Source: Salinibacterium sp. PAMC 21357 (GTDB taxonomy: Bacteria > Actinomycetota > Actinomycetes > Actinomycetales > Microbacteriaceae). From it: a DNA stretch of 64,000 bases. Below are positions 2,441 through 42,043 of the stretch, one piece after another (the stretch's first letter is position 1; each line of letters opens with the position of its first letter). The stretch covers positions 62,001 to 126,000 of the forward strand of contig NZ_AHWA01000002.1 of the NCBI RefSeq assembly GCF_000247645.1, in the 5' to 3' direction. The notes beneath the pieces are model-generated. The model was not told the origin of the DNA. It saw only the letters and a list, made by a program, of their open reading frames with translations, and made no database searches. The translations under genes and the position numbers were made by a program.

Positions 2441-2454
2441 CGAACACTCACCAG

Positions 2455-3314
2455 TTAAGCGAGCGCCTCCTCAACGCAGGGATGAAGGTGCTTCGACTCC
2501 AGAGCAACGACCGCCTGCGAGGCTGCCGAAGCAAGTGCCTCAACCGTGGATGCACCCGACAACGTTGAGTGCAGAAAGCCTGCGAAAAATGCGTCACCGG
2601 CACCGTCGTATCGCGGATCTCGGCAGGCACCGCATCCACTCGGTGGAGTCCGTCGGCGTCGACGGCCATAGCTCCCTCGGCACCCAGCGTGCACATCGCC
2701 GCGGTGGCGCCCGCGTTCACCCGAGCGCGCATGAAGGGCAGCGGGTCCGGCATCCCATCGGCGTTCATGAAGAGGTACGACGCCGCCTGAACGAATGGAT
2801 CGTGAAAGTCAGACCGGCCATCGTAATCGTGGAGATCAGTCCAGATAGGGATGCCTGATCCCACAGCCTCAGGAAGAAGGGCTCGAGATATCTCGGATAG
2901 GTCCATGACAAGTGCGTCTGCGTCGGCGGTCAGCGTGCGAAACTGCGCAACATCCGGCTCGACGAAAGCGGGAGTCGACAGGTAGAGCGACACCCGCTCG
3001 CCTGCCCGGGTCATCAAATTCAGATGGCGTTCGCTAGCGCCGGGCGCGACGACGCAATCCAGCTCGATGTCGGCCGCTTCGAGAACGGAGCGCAGCCGGA
3101 TAGACGCCGCGTCGTCACCCACCGCTGTGTGACAGGCGACTTTGTGGCCCAGCCCGGCCAGATGCAAAGCCTTACCCGCGGAGGTTCCGCCGACGGTCTC
3201 GAAATCCTCTAACACGAACTGCATGTGCGGGCGAGGTTCAGGCAGGTGCTCGAGATAGACGATGCTGTTCCACGACACAGGGCCAGAGATGAGGATGCGG
3301 TTCGGCATGCTCAC
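2455..3314 (-). CDS. PfkB/ribokinase-family carbohydrate kinase (single frameshift)
   Basis: The N-terminal ~235 residues (from 3314 or ATG 3308) carry PfkB features: 'GGTSAGKALHLAGLG' near residue 42 and 'LGAEGAMAVDADG' near 220. The active-site segment then reads out of frame; in the next frame (end at 2455) 'DGAGDAFFAGFLHSTLSG' gives the PfkB signature with its catalytic Asp. One missing base at ~2603-2609 (between codons for Asp-Thr and Gly-Ala-Gly-Asp) rejoins the frames into ~286 residues, the usual size. A GG-run at the site suggests a sequencing indel, though a recent null mutation is possible. It phosphorylates a sugar or nucleoside; substrate not predictable. The gene converges on the repeat-bounded restriction gene. 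Confidence 0.8.
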
Positions 3315-4144: not shown

Positions 4145-4944
4145 ATGGATCTCAACAACCGCCGCGGAATCATCACCGGAGCTGGCCAAGGAATCGGGCA
4201 AGCACTCGCCCTCGAATTCGCTGCCAAGGGCGCACACCTGCTGCTCGTCGGGCGCAAGGAAGCCACACTGCAGGAGACTGCAGACCTCGTAAAGAATGCC
4301 GGTGGAACATCCGAAATCCTGGTTCAAGACCTTGGCCAAGCGGATGGCGCACAGAACGTCGCTGACGCCGTGAAGTCCTGGGACACATCGACCTTCTCGT
4401 CAACAACGCCGGAAACGTGCGTGCCGGACGACTCGAAGAAGCCACCGCCGCAGAAGCCACCGCGATGATCGATCTCAACCTCACCGCGCCAGTACTGCTC
4501 ACGCAGGCACTGTTGCCACAACTGCGCACCAGCGGGGCAGCCAACGGCAGCCTCATCCTGAACATCTCCAGCGAGATCGCCCTCGTAGCGATGCCGTTCT
4601 ACGCCGTCTACGCCGCCACCAAGTCTGGCCTCGCCGCGTTCGGTGAAGCAATGCGTCGCGAACTGCACGGCACTGGCGTGCACGTGGCCACGGTTTACCC
4701 CGGTGCCACCGACACCGAGATGATGAGCAGCCAGAACGCAGACTGGGAGCGCCGCCCCGTCTCCGACGTTGTCGCTCAGGTCATGACTGGCCTCACCGCT
4801 GGTGAGCACGAGATCAACGCCTCAGCACCCGACGGCCGCGGAATGCAGGAGCTCAACGCTTCTGACCCCCTCGCCGTGGATGCTGCAATGGCGCCCGGCC
4901 TCGCCGACATGGAAGCTGCAGTAAAGGATCACAACAGCATCTAG
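4145..4944 (+). CDS. Short-chain dehydrogenase/reductase (single frameshift)
   Basis: Classical SDR of ~266 residues once one missing base at ~4382-4386 is restored. Part one (4145 on) has the NAD(P)-binding 'TGAGQGIGQAL' at residues ~11-21. After the shift the second frame gives 'LLVNNAG', then 'ISSEIALVAMPFYAVYAATK' with the catalytic Ser and Tyr-x-x-x-Lys, and 'YPGATDTEM'. It is a soluble NAD(P)-dependent oxidoreductase; substrate unknown. ATG 4145 has 'aggaaggatc' upstream. Divergent from and probably controlled by the TetR gene. The shift site follows a GG/CC-type run, so a read error is likely. Confidence 0.85.
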
Positions 4945-26048: not shown

Positions 26049-27104
26049 ATGTTCAGCTATTCCCTCGCGCCGCAAGGCACCCCCGGATTCGCTGCCATTA
26101 CCGACAGATTCGTCGCCCTTGTCGCTGGCGTCGACATCTCGGCCGCTTCTGAGCTGTACGAATTTATGGCTGGCCCCGATGCCACCATCGACGACCTTCT
26201 TGATGCCGTTTCGGCACGCAACATTCCTACTTTTGCCATCGTTGAGTTGCTCACTGCGAGCCCCGTTGCTGTGGCGATCGCCGCAAGCGGAAGCGCTCGA
26301 GTCGACATTGACGGTGCAGCGTCAACCACAATCGCTGGCCCTCCCGGGGCCACGTGGGTTATTGGCAAGGCCCGCGAGATTAGGTCCATTGTCATGTCGC
26401 TCGGCGGCGAACCAGGATCACCGGCGCGGCTGCCGATCGCCCGCGGCGTTGTACCCGCTGATTCGATTCTGATTGACGAATCTCACGCGTCAGCGCCGAT
26501 CCGCAAGGCTCCGGCACACCCCGCCACTATGCCGATCGTGCTGCCCCAGCTGAGTACACCTTCTGAGCCGACACCGCAAAGGTCGGCACGCAGCGCAGAG
26601 TCACCGGCCGCAGAGTCGCTGGCTGCGCCCTCGCTGGCCACACCCGCACCTGCCGCGCCGGACGCATCCTCAGACGCATCCTCCGCCCCATCGTCAAGTG
26701 ACCTCCTCGTAATCGAACTTCCGGACGGCAACCGGCTCGACCCGCGAACCCCAGTGCTCGTGGGGCGACGCCCGTGGAACAACGCCACCGAAGATGCCTC
26801 CCGCTTTCACGTCACAGCAGAATCACCCGAACGGCAGATCTCGGCACGCCATCTACTGCTGACCGCAACAGAGGGTCAGGTCATCGCTCAAGACTTCAAC
26901 TCCACCAACGGAACCGTCGTCATCCGTTTCGGCCGCCCGCCGTGGCTCCTCCACGAAGGAAGCACGACCGTGCTGCTTGCGGGGGACACGCTCGATCTTG
27001 GCGAAAGCTACCGGGTCAGTATCGTTCGCTCGAGTGCCGCAACAGAACTCAGCTCGCGCACCGCAATGCTCATGAACTCGCTCAACAACCCGAAGGACAT
27101 CTAA
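26049..27104 (+). CDS. FHA-domain protein (first gene of phospho-signalling cluster)
   Basis: 351 residues, ATG after 'agaggg'. Residues 1-120 form a domain I do not recognise ('FVALVAGVDISAASELYEFM', 'SPVAVAIAASGSARVDIDG'); ~125-220 is a Pro/Ala/Ser-rich linker; ~220-335 is an FHA domain with 'VLVGRRP', 'SARHLLLT' and 'DFNSTNGTVV', the conserved Gly-Arg, Ser-x-x-His and Asn-Gly positions for phosphothreonine binding. No membrane helix, so cytoplasmic. Two bases upstream of the Ser/Thr kinase gene; it probably reads a phosphosite of that kinase. Confidence 0.88.
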   Translation: MFSYSLAPQGTPGFAAITDRFVALVAGVDISAASELYEFMAGPDATIDDLLDAVSARNIPTFAIVELLTASPVAVAIAASGSARVDIDGAASTTIAGPPGATWVIGKAREIRSIVMSLGGEPGSPARLPIARGVVPADSILIDESHASAPIRKAPAHPATMPIVLPQLSTPSEPTPQRSARSAESPAAESLAAPSLATPAPAAPDASSDASSAPSSSDLLVIELPDGNRLDPRTPVLVGRRPWNNATEDASRFHVTAESPERQISARHLLLTATEGQVIAQDFNSTNGTVVIRFGRPPWLLHEGSTTVLLAGDTLDLGESYRVSIVRSSAATELSSRTAMLMNSLNNPKDI

Positions 27105-27105
27105 G

Positions 27106-28241
27106 TTGGCGCGACGCTCACCAATGCTGCCGCCAGTGCTCGCGGGGTTCACTTATGTGCGCCCTCTGGGATCTGGCGGATTCGCCGACGTGTTCCTGTA
27201 CGAACAAGACATGCCGCGTCGCGTCGTCGCCGTCAAAGTGCTGCTCGCCGACGCCATTAACTCCGAAGTGCGACGTCTTTTCAATGCCGAAGCGGATGTC
27301 ATGGCTCGCCTCAGCTCTCACCCGTCAGTGCTCACAATCTTTCAGCCAGCATCTCGTCAGATGGCCGCCCCTACCTCGCAACCGAGTATTGCGCCGACTC
27401 AATGAGTGCCCGCTACAAAGAGGCTCCATTGTCGTTAGCGTCGGTTCTCGATACCAGCGTACGGATGGCGGCGGCGCTAGAAACTGCACACCGCTCCGGG
27501 CTGCTGCATCGCGATATCAAGCCCTCGAACATCCTCATTACTACGCTCGGCACTCCCGTTCTTGCCGACTTTGGAATCGCGATGTCGCTGGGTGGCGTCG
27601 AAGACACCGACAGCCTCATTGCGATGAGCGTTCCCTGGTCGAGCCCAGAAGCATTGCAAGAATCGACAACCGGAACCGTTGCTAGCGAAGTGTGGAGCCT
27701 CGGAGCAACGATCTACACGCTCCTCGCCGGTCACAGCCCGTTCGCCACCACCGACCGCGCAAAAGATTCTCACGACCAATTGCGAGCTCGCATCTACAAA
27801 GCGGCCTACACTCCGCTGGGCCGAACCGACGTTCCCATGGCCTTCGAACAGTTTCTCGCGCGCACCATGTCTCGCGACCCCGCGAAGCGGCCCATAAGCA
27901 TGCTTGCGTTTGCCGAAGAGGTTCGCTGGATGCAGTACGAGCTTGGGCTGCCTCCCACCACGATCGAGGTTGCTGCCGCCGAGTGGGCTGCTGCAGCCCC
28001 CGTCTCGTTCGCCGATAACGCTCCCCGCGGACCAGTACTCACCACCGTTAACAAGAATTCGCGACGGGCAACCCGCGCGCAGAAAATTTCACCGCAAGCA
28101 GCGCGACGCGGTGAAGTGCCAGCCGCTCCGGCATCCGCAACGTCGCCCATGCGCGCCGCCATAATCGGCGGCGTTATTGGCGCTACCGGACTTCTGCTGG
28201 TTGGCGCTCTCGTGCTGTGGCTCACCGGGGTGATCGGCTAA
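27106..28241 (+). CDS. Ser/Thr protein kinase with C-terminal membrane anchor (single frameshift)
   Basis: ~378 residues after restoring one base at ~27345-27350; the two frames (27106-27405 and the frame ending 28241) join as '...VLTIFQ' to 'SISSDGRPYLATEY'. Kinase motifs in order: 'GSGGFADVFL', Lys in 'VAVKVL', 'HRDIKPSNIL', 'DFGIA', 'SPEAL', 'WSLGATIYTLLAG'. A single helix (~353-375) ends the protein with almost nothing outside, so there is no PASTA or other external sensor. TTG start 27106, 2 bp after the FHA gene; its stop touches the next start. The lost base is in a GG run. Confidence 0.87.
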
Positions 28242-31200
28242 GTGTCCTCAACTTCATCCGCACCACGCGTTGCGTGGTGGCGCACCCCCGTGACCAAGAT
28301 TGTGGCCGGTGTCGCTGTCGCAACGCTCTTGGTTACTGGCGCTGTAGTGGCGCAAGGGTACGACGCCCAAGAGGTACCTCGCGTTGAATCGAGTGTGTGG
28401 GTTGTTCGCGACTCGGGGCAATACGCCCGGGTCAACACTGACCTCGGCGAGATCGACACGGTGCGTTCCGTTGACGATCCCAGCACCATCGCCCAATCAG
28501 GGGCCGACGCCGTGGTGTTCGGGCAAGGCAACCGACAATTCTGGACAATCGACCCCGCCGTTCCGGCAGATCTCATCGCCGATGGCGCCCCCATCGAAAG
28601 CGAAACCGAAAGCGACACCAGCTCTCAGACCGAAGCAGCGACGGCAACGCCGGTTGGTACTCGCACGATCGTGACAGCAGGGGACTATTCGGTAGCTCTC
28701 ACGGAGCTCGGAGCTGTCTTCGTCGGCTCACTGAGCGCGCCCGGTGACGGCTTTGTCGCCGTAAATCCGTTCGCGAGCGTCGAGGTCGCCGAGGGTGAAG
28801 ACCCCCCGACATTTGTGGCAACCGCCGCGTCCGTAAGCCCCACCGGCGAGGTCGTCGTCTACTCGTCAGCAGAGAACGGTATTCGACGATTCGATGCGGT
28901 GACCCGCGAATTCACCAGCGAGCTCATCGAGATTGATTCGCCGCCAGATGCCTCAGAACCCGTCACAATGACCATGATCGGCTCCGACTGGGTATTGCAT
29001 GCGCCGGGAGAACAACTCGTCTGGATTGACGGGCGCGGCGAACCGATCGCGACCAGCCTCGGCGCGGATGCCCTGCTCCAAGAACCCACAACATCCGGCC
29101 CCGCCGTCTGGTTAGCCGATGCGACAGGCATCGTCTCAATCGATCTTGCTACCGGCCAGGTCAGCACGGCGGTCGGCGGCGGCGCAACACCGGCGGCACC
29201 CATCGTCATCAATGGCACTGCCTATGGCGCGTGGCTAAACAAAGACGGCGGCTCGCTCTATGCGAGTGATACCGGCGAGATCGTCACCCTAGAGGCGGAA
29301 CCCGAACCGCTCGAGGATGTCTCGGCGGTACTTCCCGTCATCCGCAGCAATGGGGATCGGGCTGTGCTCAATGAGACTGCCAGCGGAATGCTATGGACCA
29401 TTCCCGACGGGCGTCTGATTTCCACCGAGCAGTGGAACCTAGACAACAATGACGACGTCGAAGACGACACCGTGGTGATTGACGACGCTGACGAACAAGA
29501 ACCGCCAACAGCGGTAGCCGACTCCTTTGGGGTGCGTTCGGGAGCACTCGTGTCGTTGCCGTTGTTGTTCAACGACCATGACCCCAACCGTGCTGACGTG
29601 CTCACAATCGATCGCACTAGTCTTGGCGGGCTCTCCGATCCCGCATTCGGTGACATTGCTCTGGTCGGAAACTCTCAAACCGCGACGGTGCGAGTGGGGG
29701 CAGCTTCTGGCACCGCCACCTTCGCCTACGCCGTGAGCGACGGTGCCGCCGTTTCGGCTCCCGCTCCGGTGTCGCTCACCGTCGTACCGAACGACATTAA
29801 CTCTGCTCCGGTGTGGTGCGGTGTTGAGGCGTGCACTCAAACCTGGCCGACACCAGTGCTCGCCTCTGGCGGCACAATAACCGTTCCGGTCTTGAACGGC
29901 TGGGTCGACCCCGAGGGCGACGCGTTCGTGCTCGCCGACGTAAGCAAAGCGGACGCCTCGGACCCCATCGCCGTTGTCGCTACCGCGGATGGTTCAGTCG
30001 CTATCCGTCACACCGACCCCAACGCACCCTCTGGTTCGATGGTCATCACGATCTCAGTGATGGACTCTTTCGGTGCCGTAGCCGAGAAGGAGATGACCGT
30101 TTCGGTCAGTTCGGCGCCGCAACTCGAATTACGTCCTTCGGCCATTAGCGCGGCAGTCGGAGAGCTCGCGACGATTAAAGTCGCCGACCTCGTTAGCAGC
30201 GGATCAGGCTCGTACCGACTCGTGGACGCTATCGACTCATCGGCAACGCCTGGAGTCTTAGTGTCTCGCCGAACTCGTCGACCAACCTGATCGATGTTTC
30301 CGCTGCGACGCCAGGGGAGTACCTTGTCACGTTTGCGGTGCAAGACACTCTCACCCTTGCCGAGAAAACCGCGATTGTTCGAGTGACTGTTGTTCCTGTC
30401 ACCTCCACCATCGCGTTAGCGCCCCTTACGGCATTCGTGCGGCCCGGTGAAGACGTCACCGTCGGAGTACTCGATGCTGTTCAGAACGACACCGGCCGTG
30501 TGCTGATCGTTTATCAAGCTAACCCTCGCCAACCGCAGCTCACCGCGAGCGTTGTCGGGCAATCCAGTGTGCGCGTGCGCGGCACCACAACCGACGGCCT
30601 GCCCGGCCCGATCGGTACTGTCGGCGTCACTGTCACGGATGGTGCTGGCACCTTTGCCGAAGGAGAGATTGCCGTCTTCCTGGTGCAGCCGGCACGCGAC
30701 ATCGCCCCGATCGCGGTACCCGATACCGTCACGGTGCGCGCAGGAGCCCAAATTGACATCCCGGTTCTCGACAATGATGTAAGCCCTCGCGGCGAGAAAC
30801 TTGCCATCTCGCCCGACTTGGTCACTTCGGCAACCGCGGGAGAGCTCGCGTTCGTTGCGAGCGGCGTTGTGCGCTATCTCGCACCAACGGTACCCGGCAA
30901 CTACAGCGTGACCTATAACGCTTATCTTGAGGGCGCCCCCGAGCGACTGGCGGCTGCCACGATCACCATCACGGTGTTGGCGCCCGGCTCCAACCGCGCG
31001 CCACAACCCCGCACCCTCGTCGGTCGCGCGCTAGCCGGCGGCAGCACAACTGTTGTCGTGCCTCTGGTCGGCGCCGACCCCGACGGGGATGCGGTGTCTC
31101 TCGTTTCGGTGACGCAACCCGCCGCAGGAGAGGGCTCCGCGAGCATCTCCGCCGAGGGCACTTCCCTTATCTATCGTGCGCCCGCCGCTGGCGTCGCCGA

Positions 31201-34200
31201 TGGCCAAACGTCGTTCACCTACACTCTGCGCGATTCTGAGGGGGAGTCCGGCCGCGGCACCGTTCGCATGGGAGTGCTCAGCGACGAGAACGCCGACCTC
31301 ACGCCGCTGACATTCAGCACCCAAGTGCGAGCCCAGGTCGGATCGCAGGCGCCTCTGACAATTCTTCCGTTGCTCACCGATAGCGACCCTGCTGGCGGAA
31401 CACTCAGTCTCATCGATCTTGTACCCAACGCACCGGCGAACACAGAAAACCCGGAATATGCGCGGCTCAAGTCGCTCATCGATCCCGCGACTAACCTCGA
31501 CAAGGGCATCGTTTCGCTGCGCGCCGGCGACGTTGTCGGGTCGCACTCCTACATCTATACCGTTCAGTCGTCGAAGTCGTCGTCAACGGCGCAAGGCCTT
31601 ATCGTCGTCAGTGTCTCTGAGAACGTTGCTGCCGATTACCCCACCGTTATCGACACGACCGTGACTCTTGTTACCCGCGACAAGCTCAAGTCGGGGCTCA
31701 GCGTTGTCAGCGACAAAGTTCAGTGGATCACCGGCGATGCTGGTGCCCTAACGCTGAGCGTGTGGGGTAGCGCCGCCGAGAAATACACTGCCAAGGGCGG
31801 AAGCATTTCTGGCCCTCTGCCCAAAGCCGGAACCCTTGTTCCCTTTCAGCTCACGGGCACAGCTCCGAATGGCGACGACGTCGTGGCCTACGGATTTCTG
31901 CGCATCCCTTCCTTCGACGACATGCGTGTGCAGTCGCGCGCCAGCGCCGAACCAGTAAAAGTAAACGAAGAAGCGACGAAGTCGATCTCCGTCTCTGACT
32001 ACGTGCAAATCGGTTCGGATGACCGGCTAGAGGTGCGAGACGACGAACCATTCGCGGTTCAGCGCACCAACGCAACCTGCACGCCCGGAGAAGGTGCGAC
32101 GGTTACGTACAGTGCCGGTCGCGAAGCACCGTGGTCTGACACCTGCACTCTCGCTGTGCGCGTGGACGGTCAATCAACGTGGACGGTCATCACCATCCCG
32201 ATCACTATTCTTCCGAAAGACCCGCAGGCTATCCTCAACCCAATCTCGCGCACCGTAGCGCCCGGGGCGACAGAGAAAGTCAACCTCTACGACAATGTCA
32301 CCACGTGGGAGGGCGGTCGTGAAGGAAAGCGTGCCGACCTCGACTACTCGACGACCTATTCCGGCTCAGTCTTCACTGTCACTCAGGCGGGGGATTCGGT
32401 CACTTTCGAAGCGCACGCTGACGCGGTGCCCGGCACCCGCGAAACAATCACTGTTGGCGTAACAAGCTTCGGCGGGCTCAGCTCGACCATCTCGCTCGTC
32501 GTCGGTATTGCGCCGCCCGATGCCCCCAAGGGCGCATCGTTCGCTCATCAGTGCACCGTGAGCGCAGGCCCATCCTGCGTCATCACTGCCATCGGAATCG
32601 GTGGCGAATATGATCCCTTCGCCGGCAAAACTGGCGGTGGGCTGACGCTCGTTAATGTTGTCTCCCAATCGTGTTCTGTCGCCACCATCTCCGTTTCTGG
32701 TGCCAACAATTTGCTGGCGACCTGGCCGGGCGGACCGAGACCGGCCGGTGGCGACTGTACGGCCACGTTCACCGTCAAGGATGCTCAGGGTCGTGCCGGG
32801 CTCGGAGAGCTGCGCCTTGATGTGCTCGGCTACCCGGCCAGCCCTTCCAGCGTCGTGACCACCAATTTTGGACCGACCTGGGTCGATCTCACGGTGTCAC
32901 TTGGCGAGGCTTCATTGGCGCACCCCAGCCTGAGCGGCGTAGCGATTTATGAAGGAGGAAGCGCCGTTGCGGCATCCTGCTCCTCAGCATCAGGGGCTTA
33001 CATCTGCCGAGTCAACGGACTGACCCACGGTGCACACCGTTTCTTCACTGCACGCGCGGTGAACTCGGTCGGAGAGTCGCTCGACACGTCAGCGCACGAA
33101 ACATGGTCGTACGACTTCCCGGTAGTGAATGCCGTCAGCGGGGCCCCTGCCTACGATGCTGGCATCACCTCAGCCACCGCCGGAGCAGTCGACCTCACGA
33201 TCACTGCCGGGCCGACCGCAACAGAGTTCCGGGTGCTGGTCGACGGCGGCGTTATCGCAACCCTGGCTACCGCCGGCCCCGTCACGAGCCAGCGCGTGGC
33301 CATCACCGGAACCGGGACTCGCACCGTGACGGTTGAGCCGAACAGTGGAACAATCGCCCCGCCGATACCGCGTGCCCACGACGGGTCAAAGTCGGCGGCA
33401 GTAACTGTTGCTGGCTCACCGAGCATCAGTGCCGGAGGCAGTATTTCGGCAACAGCGACGAGCATCACGGCAACCTTCGGAACACAAAACCCGAACGGGG
33501 CAACAGCGCCGTTCCCGACGGTGTACGGCATTGCGCAGAACTCGAACCTCTCCTGCACCGGCTCGCCAACGGGAGCACCAACCGTGAATGGTGCGTCGCT
33601 CACACAAGGCACTGGGGCGTTTACCGGTCTCGAGAACAACAAGCAATTCTGGGTTATCGCGTGCTACGGCAATGGCTACGGGATCGCCTCGTCGGACATC
33701 AAATCAGACTTCACGTTCAATTCGCCGGGCTCACCGGGCGGCGACCTTGAATATCGGGTTGCCAGTGCTGCGACGGATAACGGAGGTGGCGCATACAGCT
33801 GGAATCTGGAGTCTGGTCCGAATCCGACTGCTCCGCCCTTCTTCAGTTTGGTGTGGAATCCGCACCCCTTCCCCAGTTCGCTCGACCCAGACGTCGTGCC
33901 GAATTACACCGTGAAGGGCTGTATTTTCAACAACTCGCGCTGCGGGCCCGAATCGCCGATCACTCCGGAAGCCGGAAGTGCGCCGACCGCGATTGTTGTG
34001 CAATTTGTCCCGGGTAGATGTCTTCAAGCTCCGCTCGGCGTTGACGATGGCATCAATCCATTGTCGTTCGCCGCTGACGACGCTGAAGCAACGCAAAAGA
34101 TCGTTGTCAGCCAAGCGGCAAAACCCTTCACTGACGCGAAGGCTAAGTGGGATCCCATGATTGGGGCGTGGACCTACACTGCGTCGTTCTTCGGAGCCTA

Positions 34201-34240
34201 CGCAAACACGGCCGCTGTCAGCTTCGTGTGCACCCCGTAA
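28242..34240 (+). CDS. Giant Ig-like repeat surface protein (single frameshift)
   Basis: 1999 residues once one G is restored at ~30241-30244 ('DSS' then 'GNAWSLSVSP' in the next frame). Residues ~18-40 are a signal/membrane helix; ~40-420 look like a beta-propeller-type region; ~430-1500 are tandem Ig/cadherin-like modules with Asp-rich loops ('VDPEGDAF', 'ADPDGDAVSL', 'LLFNDHDPNRADVLTI'); ~1540-1750 fibronectin-III-like ('GLTHGAHRFFTARAVNSVGES'). No LPxTG or C-terminal anchor, so it is held by the N-terminal helix or released. GTG start directly after the kinase stop. Likely a long surface fibre or adhesin, or an envelope scaffold; function unproven. Confidence 0.85.
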
Positions 34241-34280
34241 CTCAGACCATCACGATATTTCACCCCTTCGAAAGGACCCC

Positions 34281-35246
34281 ATGACCACGACGCCAGAACA
34301 GGCTGCCTGGTTTGCCGAATCTTTTTCCGTGCTCGCGGGAAACGTCGAACAGGCGATCCTCGGCAAACGTCACGTCATTGAGCTCGTGCTCGCGACTGCT
34401 CTCAGCGAGGGTCACGTGCTCCTCGAAGATGTGCCGGGCACCGGAAAGACGGCCCTCGCTCGCACGCTCGCGCAGTCGGTCGATGGTGTTGCTTCGCGCA
34501 TCCAGTTCACGCCGGATCTGCTTCCGGGTGACGTGACCGGTATCACCGTGTACGACCAGAAGCGCGGCGAGTTCGACTTTCACGCTGGCCCCATCTTCGC
34601 CAACATTGTGCTCGCCGATGAGATCAACCGCGCGAGCCCGAAAACGCAATCCGCTCTTCTCGAAGTGATGGAAGAGGGCAACGTGACCGTGGATGGTGTC
34701 ACCCGCCCCGTCGGAACGCCATTTCTGGTGATCGCAACTCAGAACCCCGTTGAGCAGGCCGGAACGTACCGCCTTCCTGAGGCACAACTCGACCGCTTTA
34801 TGATCAAAACGTCAATTGGGTACCCGGATGACGCGGCGCTTCTGCGCATCCTCGGTGGCATTGGCGGCGGCAAAAAGGTCGTCGAAAAAATTGTCGAACT
34901 TTCCACCCTGAGCGCCATGACGGAACTAGCTCGGGGGGTTTATGTCAACCCACTCGTACTCGACTACATCATGCGCATCGTCAATGCCACGCGACTGGCA
35001 ACCGAGGTTCGTCTCGGCGTGAGCGTTCGTGGAGCGATTGCGCTGTCCCGCCTCGCGATGACGTGGGCTCTTGTGCACGGGCGTACCTTTGTGACACCCG
35101 ATGATGTCGCCCAACTCGCAATTCCGGCACTCTCGCACCGCATCATCCTCGAACCAGAAGCCGAATTTGATGGCGTAACGGCGGTCGACATCGTGGGGCA
35201 GGTTCTTCTTGACGTTCCCGCACCAAGGGAGAACGGCGCGGCGTGA
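34281..35246 (+). CDS. MoxR-family AAA+ ATPase
   Basis: 321 residues from ATG 34281 ('aaagga'). Walker A 'EDVPGTGKTAL' (~50), Walker B 'IVLADEINRASPKTQSALLE', sensor region 'ATQNPVEQAGTYRLPEAQLDRF' (34735-34800), typical of MoxR. MoxR ATPases act as chaperones in maturation of partner complexes and are nearly always next to DUF58 genes, as here (GTGA overlap with 35243). Confidence 0.93.
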   Translation: MTTTPEQAAWFAESFSVLAGNVEQAILGKRHVIELVLATALSEGHVLLEDVPGTGKTALARTLAQSVDGVASRIQFTPDLLPGDVTGITVYDQKRGEFDFHAGPIFANIVLADEINRASPKTQSALLEVMEEGNVTVDGVTRPVGTPFLVIATQNPVEQAGTYRLPEAQLDRFMIKTSIGYPDDAALLRILGGIGGGKKVVEKIVELSTLSAMTELARGVYVNPLVLDYIMRIVNATRLATEVRLGVSVRGAIALSRLAMTWALVHGRTFVTPDDVAQLAIPALSHRIILEPEAEFDGVTAVDIVGQVLLDVPAPRENGAA

Positions 35247-36610
35247 ATAACGAAGTCAACGGACACACCAGCACCAGGGCCGAACACACCGGCACCTGGT
35301 CGCGCTTCGGCGGGGCGACGGTAACCCGTCACGCTTCGACGCGCGTTGGTGTTGTCGGCGGGGGAGTAGCAGCGGGGCGGCGTGCATTTTCTGTCGTCGT
35401 TCGCACGCTCGCCGCGGCCAGCCGCTGGCTGCGCGAGACGGTAACCGCGGCCGGTTGGCTCGTACTATTTGCCCTCGTCGGTGGCGCAGCGGTTGGCTTC
35501 ACCTTCGGCATGGTTGAGGGATGGGTCGTTGCCGCCATTGCGGCCGTGTTGCTCATCGCGGCGACCCCTTTTCTTCTCGGTGGTGCGACCTTAGCGGTGC
35601 GCCTCGAAATCGATCGTGATCGCGTCGTTGCGGGCAGCAGTGTGACGGCACAACTCCACATGCAGAACGCCTCGGTGAGGATCGCCCTGCCAAGCATTAT
35701 TGATATTCCTGTGGGCGATGGCCTTGTTGAGGTGCACGTTCCTCTGTTGCTTGGCAAAGCCGATCACGTTGAAACCGTCGCCATTGCGGCCACCAAACGC
35801 GGCGTGATTTCGGTGGGGCCCATGACGATTGCGCGGGGAGACCCCGTCGGGCTACTCCGCCGTGAAGTGTCGTGGCCGCAAGTGGAACACATCAACGTGC
35901 ATCCGGTGACTGCTGTCGTTCCTTCAACCTCGGCGGGCTTCATCCGTGACATCGAGGGTTCGTCGACCAAAAATATTGTCGACTCAGATCTCGCGTTCCA
36001 TGCGATTCGTGAATACGTTACGGGTGACTCACCCCGCCATATCAACTGGAAGTCCACCGCCAAGACCGGCAAGCTCATGGTGCGCCAGTACGAAGAGACT
36101 CGTCGTGCCCGTATCGCTGTTGTGCTTGATGTGAATATCACCGAGTTCACCGATGACGATGAATTTGAGATGGCGGTGAGCGCCGCCGCCTCGCTTTCCG
36201 TTCAAGGGATCACCGAAGGTCGGGAGGTGCTCGTCTCGCTTGCTGCAGCACAGGGCCGCGACGGCTCATTATCGATCCGCACCCTGCCAACAATTTCACC
36301 GCGCGCCTTTCTCGATGCCACAAGCCGCATTGACTCCAGTGATACTGCGGTGCGCATCGAAGAAGTCACAAAACTTACCTCTCAGTCGTTTCCCGAACTA
36401 TCAATTGCGTTCGTGCTCACGGGAAGCCAAATTCCGCTTGATCGACTGCGGCTTGCGGCGTTTGCGTTTCCGACCAACGTTCGCACCGTGATAATCCGCT
36501 GCGAACTCGGTGCTGAACCGACCGTCAAATCCACTCGCGACTACACCATTCTTACTATTGGCGTTCTTGGCGATCTTGGTCACCTCATCGCGAGAGGAGC
36601 TCTCGGATGA
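35243..36610 (+). CDS. DUF58 (vWA-like) membrane protein
   Basis: 455 residues. Two membrane helices near 72-115, then a beta-rich domain and the DUF58 core 'YVTGDSPRHINWKSTAKTG' (~258-276) with the vWA-like continuation 'IAVVLDVN'. DUF58 proteins are obligate neighbours of MoxR and transglutaminase-like proteins. The N-terminal ~55 residues are an unusual basic, Thr-rich cytoplasmic extension. Translationally coupled on both sides. Confidence 0.92.
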   Translation: MNNEVNGHTSTRAEHTGTWSRFGGATVTRHASTRVGVVGGGVAAGRRAFSVVVRTLAAASRWLRETVTAAGWLVLFALVGGAAVGFTFGMVEGWVVAAIAAVLLIAATPFLLGGATLAVRLEIDRDRVVAGSSVTAQLHMQNASVRIALPSIIDIPVGDGLVEVHVPLLLGKADHVETVAIAATKRGVISVGPMTIARGDPVGLLRREVSWPQVEHINVHPVTAVVPSTSAGFIRDIEGSSTKNIVDSDLAFHAIREYVTGDSPRHINWKSTAKTGKLMVRQYEETRRARIAVVLDVNITEFTDDDEFEMAVSAAASLSVQGITEGREVLVSLAAAQGRDGSLSIRTLPTISPRAFLDATSRIDSSDTAVRIEEVTKLTSQSFPELSIAFVLTGSQIPLDRLRLAAFAFPTNVRTVIIRCELGAEPTVKSTRDYTILTIGVLGDLGHLIARGALG

Positions 36611-39090
36611 GTCGTCGCAACACTCTGCCTTCGCTCGGTCGTACCCTGTGGTCTGTCGGATTCGTCGCGCTCGGAATCGCTATCGCGGCAGCGGCAGCCT
36701 GGCCGATCTATCAGACGCCGCGCGTTATTCTCCTAGCGGTCGTCGCGGGCATTGCGGGAATGGGGATCGCTTACCTTGCCGCCCGACGGGCTATGAGCTG
36801 GTGGGCAGCCACTCTCGCTGTGCTTCTTGTCTACGGCATTCTTGTGGTCCCGTTGGCGATACCGGCTGCCCTGCAGTCTCCGCTGCGAGTGTTAGCAGGA
36901 ATTCGGGATGGGTTCGCGGGAATCGTCCTCGGCTGGAAACAACTCGTGACGATCGAGTTGCCACTCGGCGACTATCAGGCTGTCCTTGTTCCCCTCTTCG
37001 TGGTCATCTTTTTGGGCGCTTTTGGCGCGCTTTCCCTCGCGCTGCGTCCCGGAAAAATCTCGGTGCTGGCCGTACCAGTCGTACTCGGAATGTTTGCCTT
37101 TGGCCTTGCATTCGGGTCGAGCGCCCTCGGTGCTCCGGTGCCCGTGCTGTGGTGGAGTCTTCCCGGTGGGGCACTCGTATTACTCGGTGTCGCGGTTATT
37201 ACGCTCAGCATGTCGTGGCTCATCGGGCGCTCGAGGCTCGCCAGAGTCGAGGCACTCAAACGTGCGCGCGGTACTGCGGTAGGCATTCGCCAGGCGCGTG
37301 AGACAACGTGGCCAATTGTGCGCCGGAACGCTCTCGGCGCGGCGATTCTCATCGTCGCAATCAGTGTTGGCTTCGCGGTCGCGCCGCTGGCGGCCAATAC
37401 CCTGCAGCGCACAACAGTGCGCGATGGCGTCGAACCGTTCCTCAATATCAGTCGAGTTCAGTCGCCGCTCATCACCTACCGTGGTTGGTTTGCCGGAGAT
37501 GCTCTCACGACAGAGCTGTTCACTGTCACGGATGCGCCGGAGAATCTTGATCGGCTGCGACTAGCTACCCTCACCGGGTTCGATGGCACGCGTTTCGAAC
37601 TCACTGATTCTGCAGCCGCCAACTTCACGCGCCTAGCCAATTCTGTGCCGGCGGCAACCGATCTTGAGGTTGCTGTCACGATCGGTGAAGGCTACGCGGG
37701 GCCGTGGCTTCCTTTGCCTGGTGTCACGAGTGCCGCGCCGTCGTTCTCCGGAGAACGAAGCGAGCTATTGACCGATGGCCTTTTTGTCGCGCCGGGTGGT
37801 ATTTCGGCGGTCGTCGTCGATGGCCAGACGGCAGACGCAGGGATCATCACTGCAACTCTTTCTCCGGGGGATCGGTTCGTCGTCAGCGGCAGCCCGCTGC
37901 CCGAATCGGGGGTGCTCGAGGGTGCCCAGGGCGGTGAACCGCTCATCGACGGCGAAGTGCACGTTGCTCTCGCTGACTGGGTTGACCGCCAAAAACTCCC
38001 GCGCACCGGCGATGGTCTGTTGGATGCCGTCAGCAAGTTGCGTGAGCGCGGATTCCTTTCGCACGCCCGCACCGAGGACACTGCGTCTGAGGGGTGGATC
38101 ACGGCGCTATCGTCACGCGCGGACTATCTCTTCGAGCCGAGTCTTGCCGGGCATTCGACGGCGCGAATCGAGACACTGTTCACGAGCCTTACTGATCAGG
38201 AAGTTAAGGCCGGCGAGGACGCATCCGAAGAATCGTTGATTTCTGCGGTGGGGGATGACGAACAGTTCTCGGTAGCGGCGGCGTTGCTCGCACGCTATTT
38301 CGGGTTCGATTCGCGCATTGTTTTTGGGGTGCTGCTCGCTTCTGATGAGTCCCAACCCTCAGTAGTGCCGTGCAGCGCTGATGGCGTCTGCACCGGTGCA
38401 AACATCACAGCGTGGACTGAAGTGCGTTCTCCCGACGGTCAATGGGTGCAATTGGATGCCACACCGCAGTTTTCCGAGCCTCTCTCGCGTGTTGTGGTGG
38501 GAGAGATTCTTCCGGAGCATCCGACCGAGCCTGACGAACCGTCAAGCGAAGTGCTGGCACCTCCCGTATCGATTCGCGCCGAATCGGATGAGCCGCCGGC
38601 CTCCGCCGAGAACTCTGCGGCCGGGCAACGCGTGTGGGAGATCGTGCGTTGGGTCGCATTAGCTGTCGCAATCGTGCTGCTGCCACTACTGCCGATCGTT
38701 GTTCTCGCCGGGGCGAAGACGCTACAACGTCGTCGTCGCCGCGCAGACCCCATTCCTGAAGTTGCGATCGTCGGAGCTTGGGACGAGCTCATTGACCGCT
38801 ATATTGATGCCGGGATTATTAGTTCGCCTCGGGGCACCCGCCGTCAGATTGCTCTCGCGACCGGTCGTCCGGCAGCACTTGCTGTCGCAGAGGCGGCAGA
38901 TACTGCCGTCTTCAACGTTTCGGCATCGTTGCCTGCGACAGCAGACGCCGTGTGGAACATTGTCGAAGCGGAACGCGGCGAGGTCGCGAAGTTAGCGTCG
39001 TGGCGCCAGCGTCTTGCCGTCACGCTGAGCACAGCATCCTTTGTTCGACACATCAAAGAAGCACAGGTGCGCCTTCGCGGCGCCGCCTGA
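36607..39090 (+). CDS. TgpA/transglutaminase-like membrane protein lacking catalytic residues
   Basis: 827 residues. Six or seven helices in the first ~260 residues (DUF3488/TgpA type), an extracytoplasmic region, a transglutaminase-core fold (~535-620), another helix (~680-702) and a cytoplasmic DUF4129-like C-terminus. In the core the usual Cys position reads 'GDDEQFSVAAALLARYFG' and the usual His-Ala-Trp reads 'ITAWTEV': both Cys and His are absent, so no transglutaminase or protease activity is expected; it is probably a binding module. Coupled to DUF58 by ATGA. Confidence 0.88.
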   Translation: MSRRNTLPSLGRTLWSVGFVALGIAIAAAAAWPIYQTPRVILLAVVAGIAGMGIAYLAARRAMSWWAATLAVLLVYGILVVPLAIPAALQSPLRVLAGIRDGFAGIVLGWKQLVTIELPLGDYQAVLVPLFVVIFLGAFGALSLALRPGKISVLAVPVVLGMFAFGLAFGSSALGAPVPVLWWSLPGGALVLLGVAVITLSMSWLIGRSRLARVEALKRARGTAVGIRQARETTWPIVRRNALGAAILIVAISVGFAVAPLAANTLQRTTVRDGVEPFLNISRVQSPLITYRGWFAGDALTTELFTVTDAPENLDRLRLATLTGFDGTRFELTDSAAANFTRLANSVPAATDLEVAVTIGEGYAGPWLPLPGVTSAAPSFSGERSELLTDGLFVAPGGISAVVVDGQTADAGIITATLSPGDRFVVSGSPLPESGVLEGAQGGEPLIDGEVHVALADWVDRQKLPRTGDGLLDAVSKLRERGFLSHARTEDTASEGWITALSSRADYLFEPSLAGHSTARIETLFTSLTDQEVKAGEDASEESLISAVGDDEQFSVAAALLARYFGFDSRIVFGVLLASDESQPSVVPCSADGVCTGANITAWTEVRSPDGQWVQLDATPQFSEPLSRVVVGEILPEHPTEPDEPSSEVLAPPVSIRAESDEPPASAENSAAGQRVWEIVRWVALAVAIVLLPLLPIVVLAGAKTLQRRRRRADPIPEVAIVGAWDELIDRYIDAGIISSPRGTRRQIALATGRPAALAVAEAADTAVFNVSASLPATADAVWNIVEAERGEVAKLASWRQRLAVTLSTASFVRHIKEAQVRLRGAA

Positions 39091-39108
39091 CAGGAGAAGG
39101 AGTAAGAG

Positions 39109-40446
39109 ATGAATGACACCGGGGACACCCTTACTTTGATCCTCGTGAGCTCTCTCGTGTATCTCGTGGTGTTTGCCGCGGTCTATGTGTGGATTTCACT
39201 GGCGCTCAGTAAACTCTTTGCCAAGCTCGGCATTCCCACCTGGAAGGCATGGGTTCCTTTCGTCAACACGATTGAGCTCTTGCGTCTTGGCGGCTATGAG
39301 GCGTGGAACATTGTGTGGTTCTTCGTCCCCTTGCTTAATGCGTACGGCGTCGTTTTGCTGATCATCTCGATTCACCGCATCAACGAACGATTCGCCCTCG
39401 GAGCGGGTATGACCGTTCTCGGTGCGATCGCCTTTCCCATTTGGGCCACAGTTCTTGGCTTCGGCCAGGCGCAACCGGTGGGCTCGGCCGACCGCCGAAT
39501 TGCCGGCCTCATGTCGGGAAACCGAGAGATGAGAGCACCCGCCGGTCAGGCTTCGACGAACGCCTTCGGCGGATCGCCTGCCATACCGAACAACGCTCCG
39601 GCTCCAGCATCATTCGCTCCTTTTGGATCACCCGGAAACCCCGCTGCAGCAGAAGCGGATCCAGAGCCGTATCCGGAACCAGCGCCGCTAGGGACTCTAC
39701 GATCCGCGCCAGCGCAACAACTTCAGTCCGGGCCCACGGCACCCCCAGCACCGCCGGTGCAGCCGCCAAGCTCGGGGTTCATTATGCCGATGCCGACGTC
39801 ATTCCCCGAAGCGGCAGCTCCGGCCCAGCACAGTCCTTCGTCTCCATTCGCGGCACAGGCTTCTCCCGAGATGCCTTCAGCACCGGCGATACCTGCGGCA
39901 CCTGCACCATTAGTGCCGCCCGTATTCTCGGCCGCACCGGCCGCACCGGCCGCACCGGCGTTCTCAGGCGCGCCGGCCGCACCCGCCGCAGATTCGTGGG
40001 CCCGCGATCAGCACGCAGCCACGTCGATGCCTCCCCAGCCTGCCGGTGATGACTTCGATGACGACGACGACGAAGACGAACGTACCGTTGTCGTGAACCG
40101 CAAGCCGATCATCCACTGGAACTTGGTGACCTCAACGGGCCAACGGTTGCCGCTGGCGAGTGACAACGTTGTGCTCGGGCGTAAACCTACTGCCGCGGAT
40201 GGCGGAACACCCTTGCCAGTGCCCGACAGCACGAAAACATTGTCGCGAGTGCACGCACGGCTCACTCGAACCGATGATTTGTGGACGATCACCGACCTCA
40301 ACGCCACCAATGGTGTTGTCGTGATCGATGCGTCCGGGGTCGAGACCGAGCTTGCCTCCGGTGCGAGTGCGCCGATCGCATTGTCGTTCATCCTCGGAGA
40401 GTTGCGTCTCTCAATCGAGTTCGATGCCGAAGGTAGGACTGCGTGA
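39109..40446 (+). CDS. Membrane-anchored FHA-domain protein
   Basis: 445 residues; ribosome site 'ggagaagga'. Residues ~5-125 have three or four membrane helices (DUF5684-like: 'KLGIPTWKAWVPFVN'). Residues ~140-305 are a Pro/Ala-rich linker with short repeats, ending in an acidic patch followed by 'DERTVVVNRKP'. FHA domain at ~340-440: 'VVLGRKP', 'LSRVHARLTR', 'DLNATNGVVV'. The TVVV-N-R motif just before the FHA domain matches the repeats of the 41285 protein and could be a phosphosite for docking. GTGA overlap with the phosphatase. Confidence 0.88.
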   Translation: MNDTGDTLTLILVSSLVYLVVFAAVYVWISLALSKLFAKLGIPTWKAWVPFVNTIELLRLGGYEAWNIVWFFVPLLNAYGVVLLIISIHRINERFALGAGMTVLGAIAFPIWATVLGFGQAQPVGSADRRIAGLMSGNREMRAPAGQASTNAFGGSPAIPNNAPAPASFAPFGSPGNPAAAEADPEPYPEPAPLGTLRSAPAQQLQSGPTAPPAPPVQPPSSGFIMPMPTSFPEAAAPAQHSPSSPFAAQASPEMPSAPAIPAAPAPLVPPVFSAAPAAPAAPAFSGAPAAPAADSWARDQHAATSMPPQPAGDDFDDDDDEDERTVVVNRKPIIHWNLVTSTGQRLPLASDNVVLGRKPTAADGGTPLPVPDSTKTLSRVHARLTRTDDLWTITDLNATNGVVVIDASGVETELASGASAPIALSFILGELRLSIEFDAEGRTA

Positions 40447-41288
40447 CCCGAACTCACCGAGTCGGTGGAGTGACGCTCTCAGTGGGAGTGGTCACCGACG
40501 TCGGTATGAAACGTCAACTCAACGAAGATAGCTATGTGGCCCAAGCCCCCATCTATGTCGTTGCTGATGGAATGGGCGGCTATGAGGCAGGGGATCGGGC
40601 AAGTTCTGCGGTCGTCGACGCCTTCGAGACAGTGCTGCGGGGCAATACAGTAGCCACCGTCGAGCTCATCTCGGCAGCCCTTGAACGAGCCGATGAACTC
40701 GTCGCCGCTGTAGCCGGAACCACTTCTCGTGGTGCAGGCTCGACCGTCACTGGCGCAGCGATTGTCGATCACGATGGAGTGCCCAGTTGGCTGGTTTTTA
40801 ACGTCGGTGACTCACGGGTCTACCGGAATATCGGAAGCTTGCTTCAGCAAATCACTGTTGACCATTCCCTTGGTCAGGAACTTTTCGATGCTGGCGAGCT
40901 TACGGCCGAAGAGTTTGCGTCTTTTCCCGACCGCAATGTGATCACGCGGGCTATCGGTGCCCCCGATTCAACCGCCGACAGCTGGATCACACCCATCGTC
41001 AACGGCGAACGGCTACTGATCTGTTCCGACGGGCTCACGTCGGAGGTTGCGGATGAAACCATTCGCGCCAGCCTCACGATGGGCGGCGTGCCTGATTCTG
41101 TGGCCTGGGGACTCGTTGATCTTGCCAAGCGCGCTGGTGGCAAAGACAACATCACCGTCATCGTCATCGATGTTATTTCTGGTGGGGGAGATGTGGCACG
41201 GGACGGTTCGACGGGCAGCTGGATGCGTGTGGGTTTGAGCGCTGAGGACGAAAACGACGAAACTACGATCCCCGTGGGGCGCCGATGA
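40443..41288 (+). CDS. PP2C-family Ser/Thr protein phosphatase
   Basis: 281 residues from GTG 40443. PP2C metal-binding motifs in order: 'NEDSYVAQ', 'VVADGMGGYEAGDRAS', 'NVGDSRVYR', 'ICSDGLTSEV', 'GGKDNITVIVID'. No membrane segment. Counterpart of the kinase at 27106. The C-terminal tail ends 'DENDETTIPVGRR', an acidic E-T-T-x-x-V sequence like the kinase/FHA docking motifs of GarA-type proteins, so the phosphatase itself may be a kinase target (inference). Confidence 0.92.
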   Translation: MTRTHRVGGVTLSVGVVTDVGMKRQLNEDSYVAQAPIYVVADGMGGYEAGDRASSAVVDAFETVLRGNTVATVELISAALERADELVAAVAGTTSRGAGSTVTGAAIVDHDGVPSWLVFNVGDSRVYRNIGSLLQQITVDHSLGQELFDAGELTAEEFASFPDRNVITRAIGAPDSTADSWITPIVNGERLLICSDGLTSEVADETIRASLTMGGVPDSVAWGLVDLAKRAGGKDNITVIVIDVISGGGDVARDGSTGSWMRVGLSAEDENDETTIPVGRR

Positions 41289-42043
41289 TCGACGACGAGG
41301 ATAGTGAAATCACTATCAGCAGGCCGGGCGTGACTGAGGCTGTCGACTATGGCGAGTCCGTGGATGAGTCGACGGTAGTTGTCGACCGCAGGAATGCTTC
41401 CTTAAACGAAGTCGACGAATCCACTGTCGTTGTCGACCGTCGGCATATCTCTGTCAGCGAAGTGGACGAGTCGACGGTAGTTGTCGACCGCAGAAGCAGC
41501 TCTTCTTCCGAGGTCGATGAGGCTACCGTCGTTGTAGCTCGTCACAGAGATGAGGCTGATGAATCTACCGTGGTCGTGAATCGTCACGCCCCAGACCCCG
41601 AAGCAACCGTGGTTGTAGCGGCGAAACCTCGGCTGACGGAGTCGGAGGCCGACATCGTTGCTGACGACGACGACGGCGCCGATGATGATCCTGAGGCGAC
41701 TCGTGCCGTCGATCGGGGTAACCAACGAGCACTCAAAAAGGCGCCACCGCGGCGTCGCGGAACGCTGAGGCCAGCACCAGTCTCAGTAGAGATGCTCGAT
41801 CGGGCAGTGCCGGCTGCTGGCCCTGGTGCTATCGCGACTTACGCCAGTCGAGAGATTCTGTCGCCTCCATTGGCGGGGAACATTGATACGGGTGCCGCGA
41901 TTGCCCGCGAGAATCCGGCGGCACTGCCCTCCGTGGCGCGCCGTTCGGCCCGTACCGCCCTAATCACTTTCGGCAGCGTGGCGGCATCAATCGTGGTTGC
42001 TGTCGGTGGTCTGATCCTTATTGGGGTGTGGATCTTCGGCTAG
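41285..42043 (+). CDS. Tail-anchored protein with tandem (D/E)-S/A-T-V-V-V repeats
   Basis: 252 residues. Residues 26-116 are six tandem copies of a motif 'VDESTVVVDRR' (three 17-residue units, then shorter ones: VDEATVVVARH, ADESTVVVNRH, PEATVVVAAK), plus a degraded 'PEATRAVDRG' near 137. Then an acidic stretch, a basic linker, and one C-terminal helix (~228-250), giving a cytoplasmic N-terminus. Each acidic-Thr-hydrophobic unit resembles a Ser/Thr kinase acceptor that FHA domains read. Encoded last in the kinase/FHA/PP2C operon, it is probably the scaffold or substrate of that system. I know no named family. Confidence 0.8.
   Translation: MIDDEDSEITISRPGVTEAVDYGESVDESTVVVDRRNASLNEVDESTVVVDRRHISVSEVDESTVVVDRRSSSSSEVDEATVVVARHRDEADESTVVVNRHAPDPEATVVVAAKPRLTESEADIVADDDDGADDDPEATRAVDRGNQRALKKAPPRRRGTLRPAPVSVEMLDRAVPAAGPGAIATYASREILSPPLAGNIDTGAAIARENPAALPSVARRSARTALITFGSVAASIVVAVGGLILIGVWIFG
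41360..41632 (+). repeat. Tandem coding repeats (51-bp units, then shorter)
   Basis: Three 51-bp units at 41360-41410, 41411-41461 and 41462-41512, followed by shorter units to 41632, encode the STVVV repeats. Codons differ between units (for example TCG-ACG against TCC-ACT for Ser-Thr), so the protein repeat is under selection and not a fresh slippage product. Confidence 0.85.

Follow-up and report, generated by a model that had tools for sequence, protein, structure and literature searches.

Closest Described Systems

The best described counterpart of the gene cluster studied here is the PFNA operon of Bifidobacterium, which comprises pkb2-fn3-aaa-atp-duf58-tgm together with prpC, a hypothetical gene and fha (PMC8430577). 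Its genes are co-transcribed in B. longum, and MoxR is a phosphorylation substrate of Pkb2 in Bifidobacterium (PMC8430577). Binding of TNF by FN3 fragments has been reported (PMC8430577, PMC10688814), and the operon has been stated to be restricted to bifidobacteria (PMC10688814). Our cluster occupies positions 26049-42043 on the plus strand of a 64,000-nucleotide stretch (the window) of the Salinibacterium sp. PAMC 21357 genome (contig NZ_AHWA01000002.1, positions 62,001 to 126,000). A first-pass annotation had presented it as a self-contained kinase, phosphatase and FHA system that matches nothing described. This last claim was not borne out: the cluster is PFNA-type.

Similar sets of parts are known from variants of the type VII secretion system (T7SS). 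T7SSd, in Olsenella and Bifidobacterium, combines an Ig-like giant with a kinase and an FHA-bearing ATPase (Garrett et al. 2024, PMC11217815). Compared by the descriptions in that paper, T7SSd and T7SSe share two parts with the window, a Ser/Thr kinase and an Ig-like envelope protein of very large size, and two more with the sister branches of the window cluster, an FHA-bearing EssC-type ATPase and WXG100 genes. The window branch differs from T7SSd in having neither the ATPase nor WXG100. In addition, the T7SSd giant TsdI has a C-terminal transmembrane segment, whereas the giant here has an N-terminal anchor and no C-terminal hydrophobic segment was seen in it by eye. The main text of PMC11217815 makes no mention of MoxR, DUF58, transglutaminase or fibronectin, and no paper joining PFNA and T7SS was found in the open-licence part of PMC.

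Other systems resemble the window in part. MoxR adjoins DUF58 in the mycobacterial moxR operon too; the review that notes the resemblance of this operon to PFNA describes no kinase-giant-Tgm set in its account of it (PMC12067865). The FHA domain of OdhI/GarA binds the protein's own phosphothreonine (PMC2784874), and an ETTS motif belongs to this switch (PMC8546545). FHA2 of the window likewise has a threonine motif shortly ahead of its FHA domain, a possible self-ligand; the window differs from GarA/OdhI in its membrane FHA protein and separate multi-motif repeat protein, known here from sequence. In type VI secretion, a kinase, a phosphatase and FHA proteins control the assembly of a surface machine, and the window carries a comparable set; the sole match between the two is that of FHA2 to the T6SS FHA model (TagH), at E 0.009 and under the NCBIfam cut-off. 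Threonine-phosphorylation control of type VI secretion also appears in the discussion of PMC11217815.

Identity and Composition of the Cluster

The kinase-giant-MoxR-DUF58-Tgm order on one strand, by which we recognise a PFNA-type cluster, is present in the window. Homologous core genes stand in the same order in the PFNA operon, and both have PP2C and FHA genes toward the cluster end. Against eight giants from Bifidobacteriaceae, the reference giants, which come from this genome's three clusters, gave best phmmer scores of 381-529 bits. Regions were read in nine Bifidobacteriaceae genomes: in eight of them kinase, giant, DUF58 and Tgm follow one another in this order, MoxR being seen in 6/8, and no giant was seen in the ninth (G688). 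Tgm-profile matches occur in 16/18 Bifidobacteriaceae genomes, the one in G688 being only partial. We take these genomes to be Bifidobacteriaceae from a 16S primer motif, on which the family assignment rests; the 16S motif search at class level found no bifidobacteria.

Relative to the PFNA operon, the window adds a leading FHA gene, a membrane FHA protein of the DUF5684 type and a repeat protein (Rep), its giant has no Fn3 family above threshold, this one genome (3.1 Mb) holds three clusters, and an EccC/EssC-type ATPase occurs in sister branches. The three PFNA-type clusters are A (the window), B (L008) and C (L007). We use type A as a name for the window's branch, which is without a secretion ATPase. 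The window cluster belongs to a known kind, here found in a new setting and with new components; the new points are the T7SS-type ATPase beside clusters of sister lineages, a Tgm without the catalytic Cys and the [DE]xTVVVxR repeat protein with its C-terminal anchor.

All nine genes of the first-pass annotation were recovered on one strand and in the same order by open reading frames and domain scans. FHA1 (26049..27104) is a 351 aa FHA-domain protein (PF00498, E 2.3e-5; 34% against orthologues of type A relatives). The Pkb2-like Ser/Thr kinase gene (27106..28241) is frame-broken near 27345; PF00069 was detected in its N-lobe piece (2.9e-6) and C-terminal piece (9.8e-26), which form two collinear tblastn segments against intact 377-aa relatives. 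The giant Ig-array protein, homologue of FN3, is encoded at 28242..34240 with a break near 30224-30263, and each of its two pieces has Big_9 Ig repeats (E 3.4e-11 and 2.5e-16). At E 0.01 neither piece matched an Fn3 family; the scan covered domain families and not the WSxWS-type motif. The predicted Ig/Fn3 protein of about 2000 residues therefore agrees with the family in size (1965 and 1984 aa, as a single open frame, in relatives), whereas no intact frame is present here and only the Ig part was found.

The MoxR-family AAA+ ATPase (34281..35246) matched two domain families (PF07726, AAA_3, E 1.8e-62; AAA_lid_2, 2.8e-23) and is 80% against a relative. It is followed by the DUF58 protein (35243..36610; PF01882, E 1.1e-10), with N-terminal hydrophobic segments read by eye, and by Tgm (36607..39090), a membrane protein with a transglutaminase-like domain (PF01841, Transglut_core, E 1.9e-10). 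FHA2 (39109..40446) combines a membrane DUF5684 part (PF18936, 5e-12) with an FHA domain (PF00498, 1.2e-5). The PP2C-type phosphatase (40443..41288; PF13672, PP2C_2, 1.5e-9) has a TTIPV tail and matches the Stp1-type NCBIfam model NF033484 at 1.7e-54, under its cut-off. Rep (41285..42043), in which the [DE]xTVVVxR motif recurs and the C-terminus forms a hydrophobic anchor, had no NCBIfam match, and a Pfam scan was not made for it.

The tight spacing that had been described applies to half of the eight junctions, which are 4-bp overlaps (35243/35246, 36607/36610, 40443/40446, 41285/41288); the remaining four gaps are 1, 0, 40 and 18 bp, with the kinase starting at 27106 and MoxR at 34281. Hydrophobic segments were seen by eye, as predicted, in the kinase (C-terminus), FHA2 (N-terminus) and Rep (C-terminus). 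In the window kinase no further domain follows this segment (by eye), and in the six intact type A kinases that were read the chain stops just past it.

Distribution and Gene Order in Relatives

Tgm matches were found in 27/27 genomes of the genus, and the locus was read in 11 of them, two in part on short contigs. Outside the genus we obtained 39 giant regions, one G213 cluster being entered twice in this count, and in 33/39 the giant is followed on its own strand by Tgm together with MoxR or DUF58. In 19/39 the kinase immediately precedes the giant; otherwise it is elsewhere in or beyond the stretch. The genes are thus not scattered in relatives, in keeping with the conserved gene order that the first-pass annotation had proposed to check, and giant-MoxR/DUF58-Tgm is a conserved core. 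A profile of the giant N-terminus matched 31/296 class genomes, some weakly, and yielded 27 named loci; 14 of these carry kinase, giant, MoxR and Tgm together (in Leucobacter, Demequina, Sanguibacter, Agromyces, Salinibacterium and a Leifsonia metagenome-assembled genome), and 3/27 are cut short.

Type A was found in 4/27 genus genomes and, by best match of the giant, in nine genomes of the family outside the genus (G120, G143, G174, G213, G221, G230, G239, G265, G291). In several genomes, among them Agromyces, Promicromonospora, G315 and G265, giant genes stand in tandem (L138, L148, L108, L109, L112, L097, L099, L100). The rpoC gene adjoins the cluster in G006 (L026, type A) and in the Bifidobacterium genome G732 (L164), as read by eye.

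The Transglutaminase-Like Component

The name transglutaminase-like holds for Tgm as far as the Transglut_core domain is concerned, while the catalytic Cys is absent from every copy read. The Tgm profile matches TgpA (PDB 6g49) weakly (E 3.7e-5). Motif reading gave no Cys at the catalytic Cys position in 53 copies (0/53; residues D, Q, G, A, E or S) and His at the catalytic His position in 5/53, with 48/53 lacking it; 21 copies were aligned and all 53 read by motif, open reading frames below 100 bits having been dropped beforehand. The window Tgm has D and T at these two positions. Replacement of the Cys by a conserved Glu was considered and ruled out by the TgpA alignments, in which the Cys position corresponds to the variable residue before the Glu. 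TgpA and the stand-alone MoxR-DUF58-Tgm triads share the domain family and the gene trio with the window; the cluster Tgm differs from them in lacking the Cys in 53/53. One such triad lies in this same genome (L009:8140-12559, minus strand) and keeps the catalytic Cys and His. The cluster Tgm is probably not an active transglutaminase.

The Giant and the Repeat Protein

The giant begins with an N-terminal hydrophobic anchor, followed by a beta-propeller-like region and then by tandem Ig-like domains. Its two pieces were modelled separately. The N-terminal 520 residues gave a propeller-like region and an Ig domain (pLDDT 78.4), and the next 1200 modelled residues an all-beta string (pLDDT 79.1). 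PDB fold matches of the 1200-residue model were contactin, titin and cadherin arrays; the best matches of the N-terminus were mostly proteins that we take to be propellers. TM-scores were low, mostly below 0.5, so only the fold class is claimed.

Rep orthologues occur in the same four genus genomes as type A (4/27), with equivalents outside the genus in G239 and in G221, the latter with degenerate motifs and a C-terminal hydrophobic segment. Five Rep orthologues together contain 26 matches to [DE]xTVVVxR against 0.06 expected after shuffling, where one site can count twice; the motif is conserved and the spacers diverge among orthologues. Elsewhere in the clusters the motif was found in 14/67 FHA proteins (0.50 matches expected), 2/40 PP2C, 1/50 kinases, 1/52 MoxR, 0/42 DUF58 and 0/53 Tgm. 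In FHA2 of the window it reads ERTVVVNR and stands immediately ahead of the FHA domain.

Association with Type VII Secretion

If the window branch has no secretion ATPase, then we can ask: How do the sister branches compare? An EccC/EssC-type FtsK/SpoIIIE domain lies within 10 kb of 36/43 Tgm loci of the genus, in 25/27 genomes. The seven unlinked loci are four of type A, the own C copy, and those of G018 and G024, which we took as contig-end cases. Cluster B, in this genome and in relatives, is followed by an EccC-like FtsK/SpoIIIE ATPase; after the own copy B, the listing for that strand shows no WXG100-sized gene (at least 75 aa) over the following 7.5 kb. In cluster C of G006 and G022, the interval from Tgm to the last FHA gene holds an EssC-like ATPase along with WXG100-like genes, and the ATPase of G006 bears an FHA domain. 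Copy C of this genome (L007, G000:C3, 3575-3645) is without that EssC/WXG100 block of roughly 8-10 kb.

Outside the genus, 8/19 two-part regions have the ATPase, a count from which a 121-aa piece at the outer edge of the G074 region is excluded, and five of these eight have a WXG100-like gene by phmmer. Among single regions, ATPase matches were found in L179 (G230), at the edge of L186 (G120) and, weakly, in L196 (G172). A scan of 10 small or neighbouring proteins with the WXG100 Pfam model placed three above the cut-off (best 8e-20) and four below it, with two giving no match. The tenth, a 1231-aa protein of G132 (L131:940-4632, minus strand), scored above the WXG100_2 cut-off; encoded in a PFNA-type locus next to an EssC-type ATPase and WXG100 genes, it is a candidate T7SS substrate.

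The window itself has no homologue of the secretion ATPase (EccC), EccD or the mycosin (S8), in which it differs from ESX (T7SSa); EccB and EccE were not searched. It gave no match to two WXG100-like reference sequences, the Pfam model not being run over the whole window. With neither ATPase nor WXG100 match present, membership of the window cluster itself in a T7SS was ruled out. Among the FtsK_SpoIIIE matches listed for this genome, those found are on contigs C1 and C2 and none is on the window contig C5, and EccD matches are on C1 only. Contig C1 carries the organism's own ESX-type T7SS locus (L006, G000:C1:198000-217000), with subtilase, EccD, FHA protein and EccC, unlinked to the window.

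We also considered that type A is tied to ESX. Within the genus this held: EccD is present in 3/27 genomes, all three among the four type A genomes (G006 is the type A genome without it), and Rep of type A lies about 2.7 kb from the ESX EccD in both G019 and G024. Outside the genus it failed, since EccD occurs in only 2/9 type A genomes, yet in eight genomes with other giant types.

A Tgm tree of 47 rows, built by a quick search with support from the Shimodaira-Hasegawa-like approximate likelihood ratio test (SH-aLRT) only, united the type A rows, Demequina among them, in a single branch (support 100) whose sister is the type B group (98). All 11 type B rows are ATPase-linked, and the link label takes 7 changes over the labelled rows. 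In bifidobacteria, 0/7 clusters have an adjacent FtsK/SpoIIIE ATPase. An FtsK/SpoIIIE match beyond the canonical one was present in 17/18 Bifidobacteriaceae genomes, and since these include G556 and G759, which lack Tgm, there is no co-occurrence of the two. In G480:C2 and G641:C1 (Bifidobacteriaceae) a 1524-aa frame with two FtsK/SpoIIIE matches lies about 34-35 kb from the PFNA Tgm.

From these ATPase and EccD counts, the association with T7SS is strong for clusters B and C and weak for the window's branch. The description self-contained accordingly suits the window branch and does not extend to its sister branches, which include an EccC/EssC-type ATPase.

Proposed Mechanism and Alternatives

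From the observed homology and conserved core we infer a mechanism in which phosphorylation controls how a membrane-anchored propeller/Ig fibre is assembled or displayed, a reading to which we give about even weight. The giant would be anchored at its N-terminus, with the propeller near the membrane and the long Ig-like string passing through and beyond the wall. The MoxR ATPase and its DUF58 partner would assemble or place it, working on a platform in the membrane of which the catalytically dead Tgm is a part. The kinase and PP2C would set the phosphorylation of threonines in the [DE]xTVVVxR motifs of FHA2, the PP2C tail and the tail-anchored Rep, and FHA1 and FHA2 would bind the phosphorylated motifs. 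Because both FHA proteins are proposed to bind it, Rep may be a multivalent membrane docking site that switches the assembly machinery on and off, a role for which GarA/OdhI uses a single site. In sister branches this module is coupled to an EccC/EssC-type ATPase, and the general job of the module is therefore probably the building of a wall-crossing fibre for contact or export.

Several observations weigh against this reading. The cluster in this organism is known from its genes alone, and its kinase and giant are frame-broken in this assembly. Giants without the other genes make up 10/27 named loci, one of the ten with a MoxR fragment; they belong to Promicromonospora, Cellulosimicrobium, Sphaerisporangium and one Salinibacterium, and several of them run into the end of a contig or locus. 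This does not apply to L105 and L110: with about 5 kb of downstream flank they have a giant but no MoxR, and no kinase or MoxR/DUF58/Tgm was detected in the fetched flanks, so the giant can occur without the adjacent trio. Type A kinases lack a domain beyond the hydrophobic segment, and MoxR is presumably cytosolic, without direct contact to the giant. That the motif resembles FHA-ligand phosphosites is also something we infer. In 7/14 motif-bearing FHA proteins the motif falls inside the FHA fold itself, the other seven, window FHA2 included, having it in linkers or tails, and some FHA rows represent one gene that was entered from two loci (L026, L088). TVVVxR may alternatively imitate the edge strand of an FHA domain (VxxGR).

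Among the other explanations, it is possible, if tentative, that the cluster is the envelope component of a T7SS. The giant would cross the wall, as proposed for EsaA and TsdI, the kinase/FHA set would control the ATPase, and type A would use an ESX system elsewhere or have lost the ATPase. The linkage counts within and outside the genus, the WXG100 matches, the position of type A beside the fully linked type B group, the distribution of EccD within the genus with its proximity to Rep, and the parts list of T7SSd all point this way. The empty window, the scarcity of EccD in type A genomes outside the genus, G006, the unlinked bifidobacterial clusters and copy B without a WXG100-sized gene point the other way. 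A wider version, which we hold just as tentatively, makes PFNA-type clusters the envelope half of an undescribed T7SS lineage. Here the propeller/Ig giant would be a wall-crossing tube or tether built by MoxR, DUF58 and the dead transglutaminase, with the Rep phosphothreonine scaffold gating it via FHA; the bifidobacterial operon would be an ATPase-free descendant, its cytokine binding secondary, and the window branch a second ATPase-free offshoot.

The frame breaks raise the question of whether the locus is decaying and non-functional in this strain, which we consider rather doubtful. The kinase N-lobe and C-part lie in separate reading frames, and the giant is split into a frame of 682 aa from 28242 and one of 1300 aa up to 34240; both breaks were mapped against intact relatives. 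In copy B the giant and DUF58 are also broken relative to intact relatives, copy C lacks the secretion block of G006 and G022, and the EccD match of this genome has one internal stop. A break script over 76 position bins flagged the kinase of the window, both the giant and DUF58 of copy B, and a short frame antisense to a gene, which we dismissed; the window giant fell below its identity cut, its break being shown by the comparison with intact relatives. Selective decay of PFNA genes, which this result suggested, was weakened by two unrelated window genes broken in the same way (by eye): a sugar (carbohydrate) kinase (2448-3314, minus strand) near 2608 and a short-chain dehydrogenase (about 4200-4560, plus strand) near 4373. 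Because of these, small sequencing or assembly indels are the simpler and likely explanation of the breaks in kinase and giant, and the remaining cluster genes keep open frames. A coding-frame scan gave 0.78 events per 10 kb in own loci against 0.98 in those of relatives; the scan is insensitive, having missed the kinase and copy B breaks, and three window events were viewed by eye.

Signalling of wall integrity is an unlikely explanation. The giant would be a mechanical or ligand sensor and MoxR, DUF58 and Tgm would tune wall synthesis, display of the giant not being the regulated step. It would suit the type B and C kinases of this genome, which extend beyond the hydrophobic segment (by eye), and the MoxR-DUF58 pair of the mycobacterial moxR operon, discussed together with rip cell-wall hydrolases (PMC12067865); the cluster, however, contains no wall enzyme, and its constant parts are the giant, MoxR/DUF58 and Tgm.

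Detection of immune signals from the host, for which the giant would be a receptor of cytokines, as published for Bifidobacterium on the basis of TNF binding, is very improbable here and was ruled out as the ancestral function, because the cluster is widespread and multi-copy beyond bifidobacteria. Tgm homologues occur throughout a genus to which Salinibacterium soli belongs, this one genome has three clusters, and the window giant matched no Fn3 family at E 0.01. Cytokine sensing could be a later adoption confined to gut species.

These findings would connect two literatures: that on PFNA, published as a host-immunity device exclusive to bifidobacteria, and that on T7SS variants with kinases and Ig giants. 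The PFNA homologue spans several actinobacterial families, including the window's genus, which has free-living species. The data argue against taking Tgm as an active transglutaminase. The MoxR-DUF58-transglutaminase trio, which is not in the published T7SS variants, is found in loci with EccC/EssC-type ATPases. With the trio and the giant present in such loci and in free-living relatives, the function of DUF58 and of the giant becomes testable in easy laboratory species.

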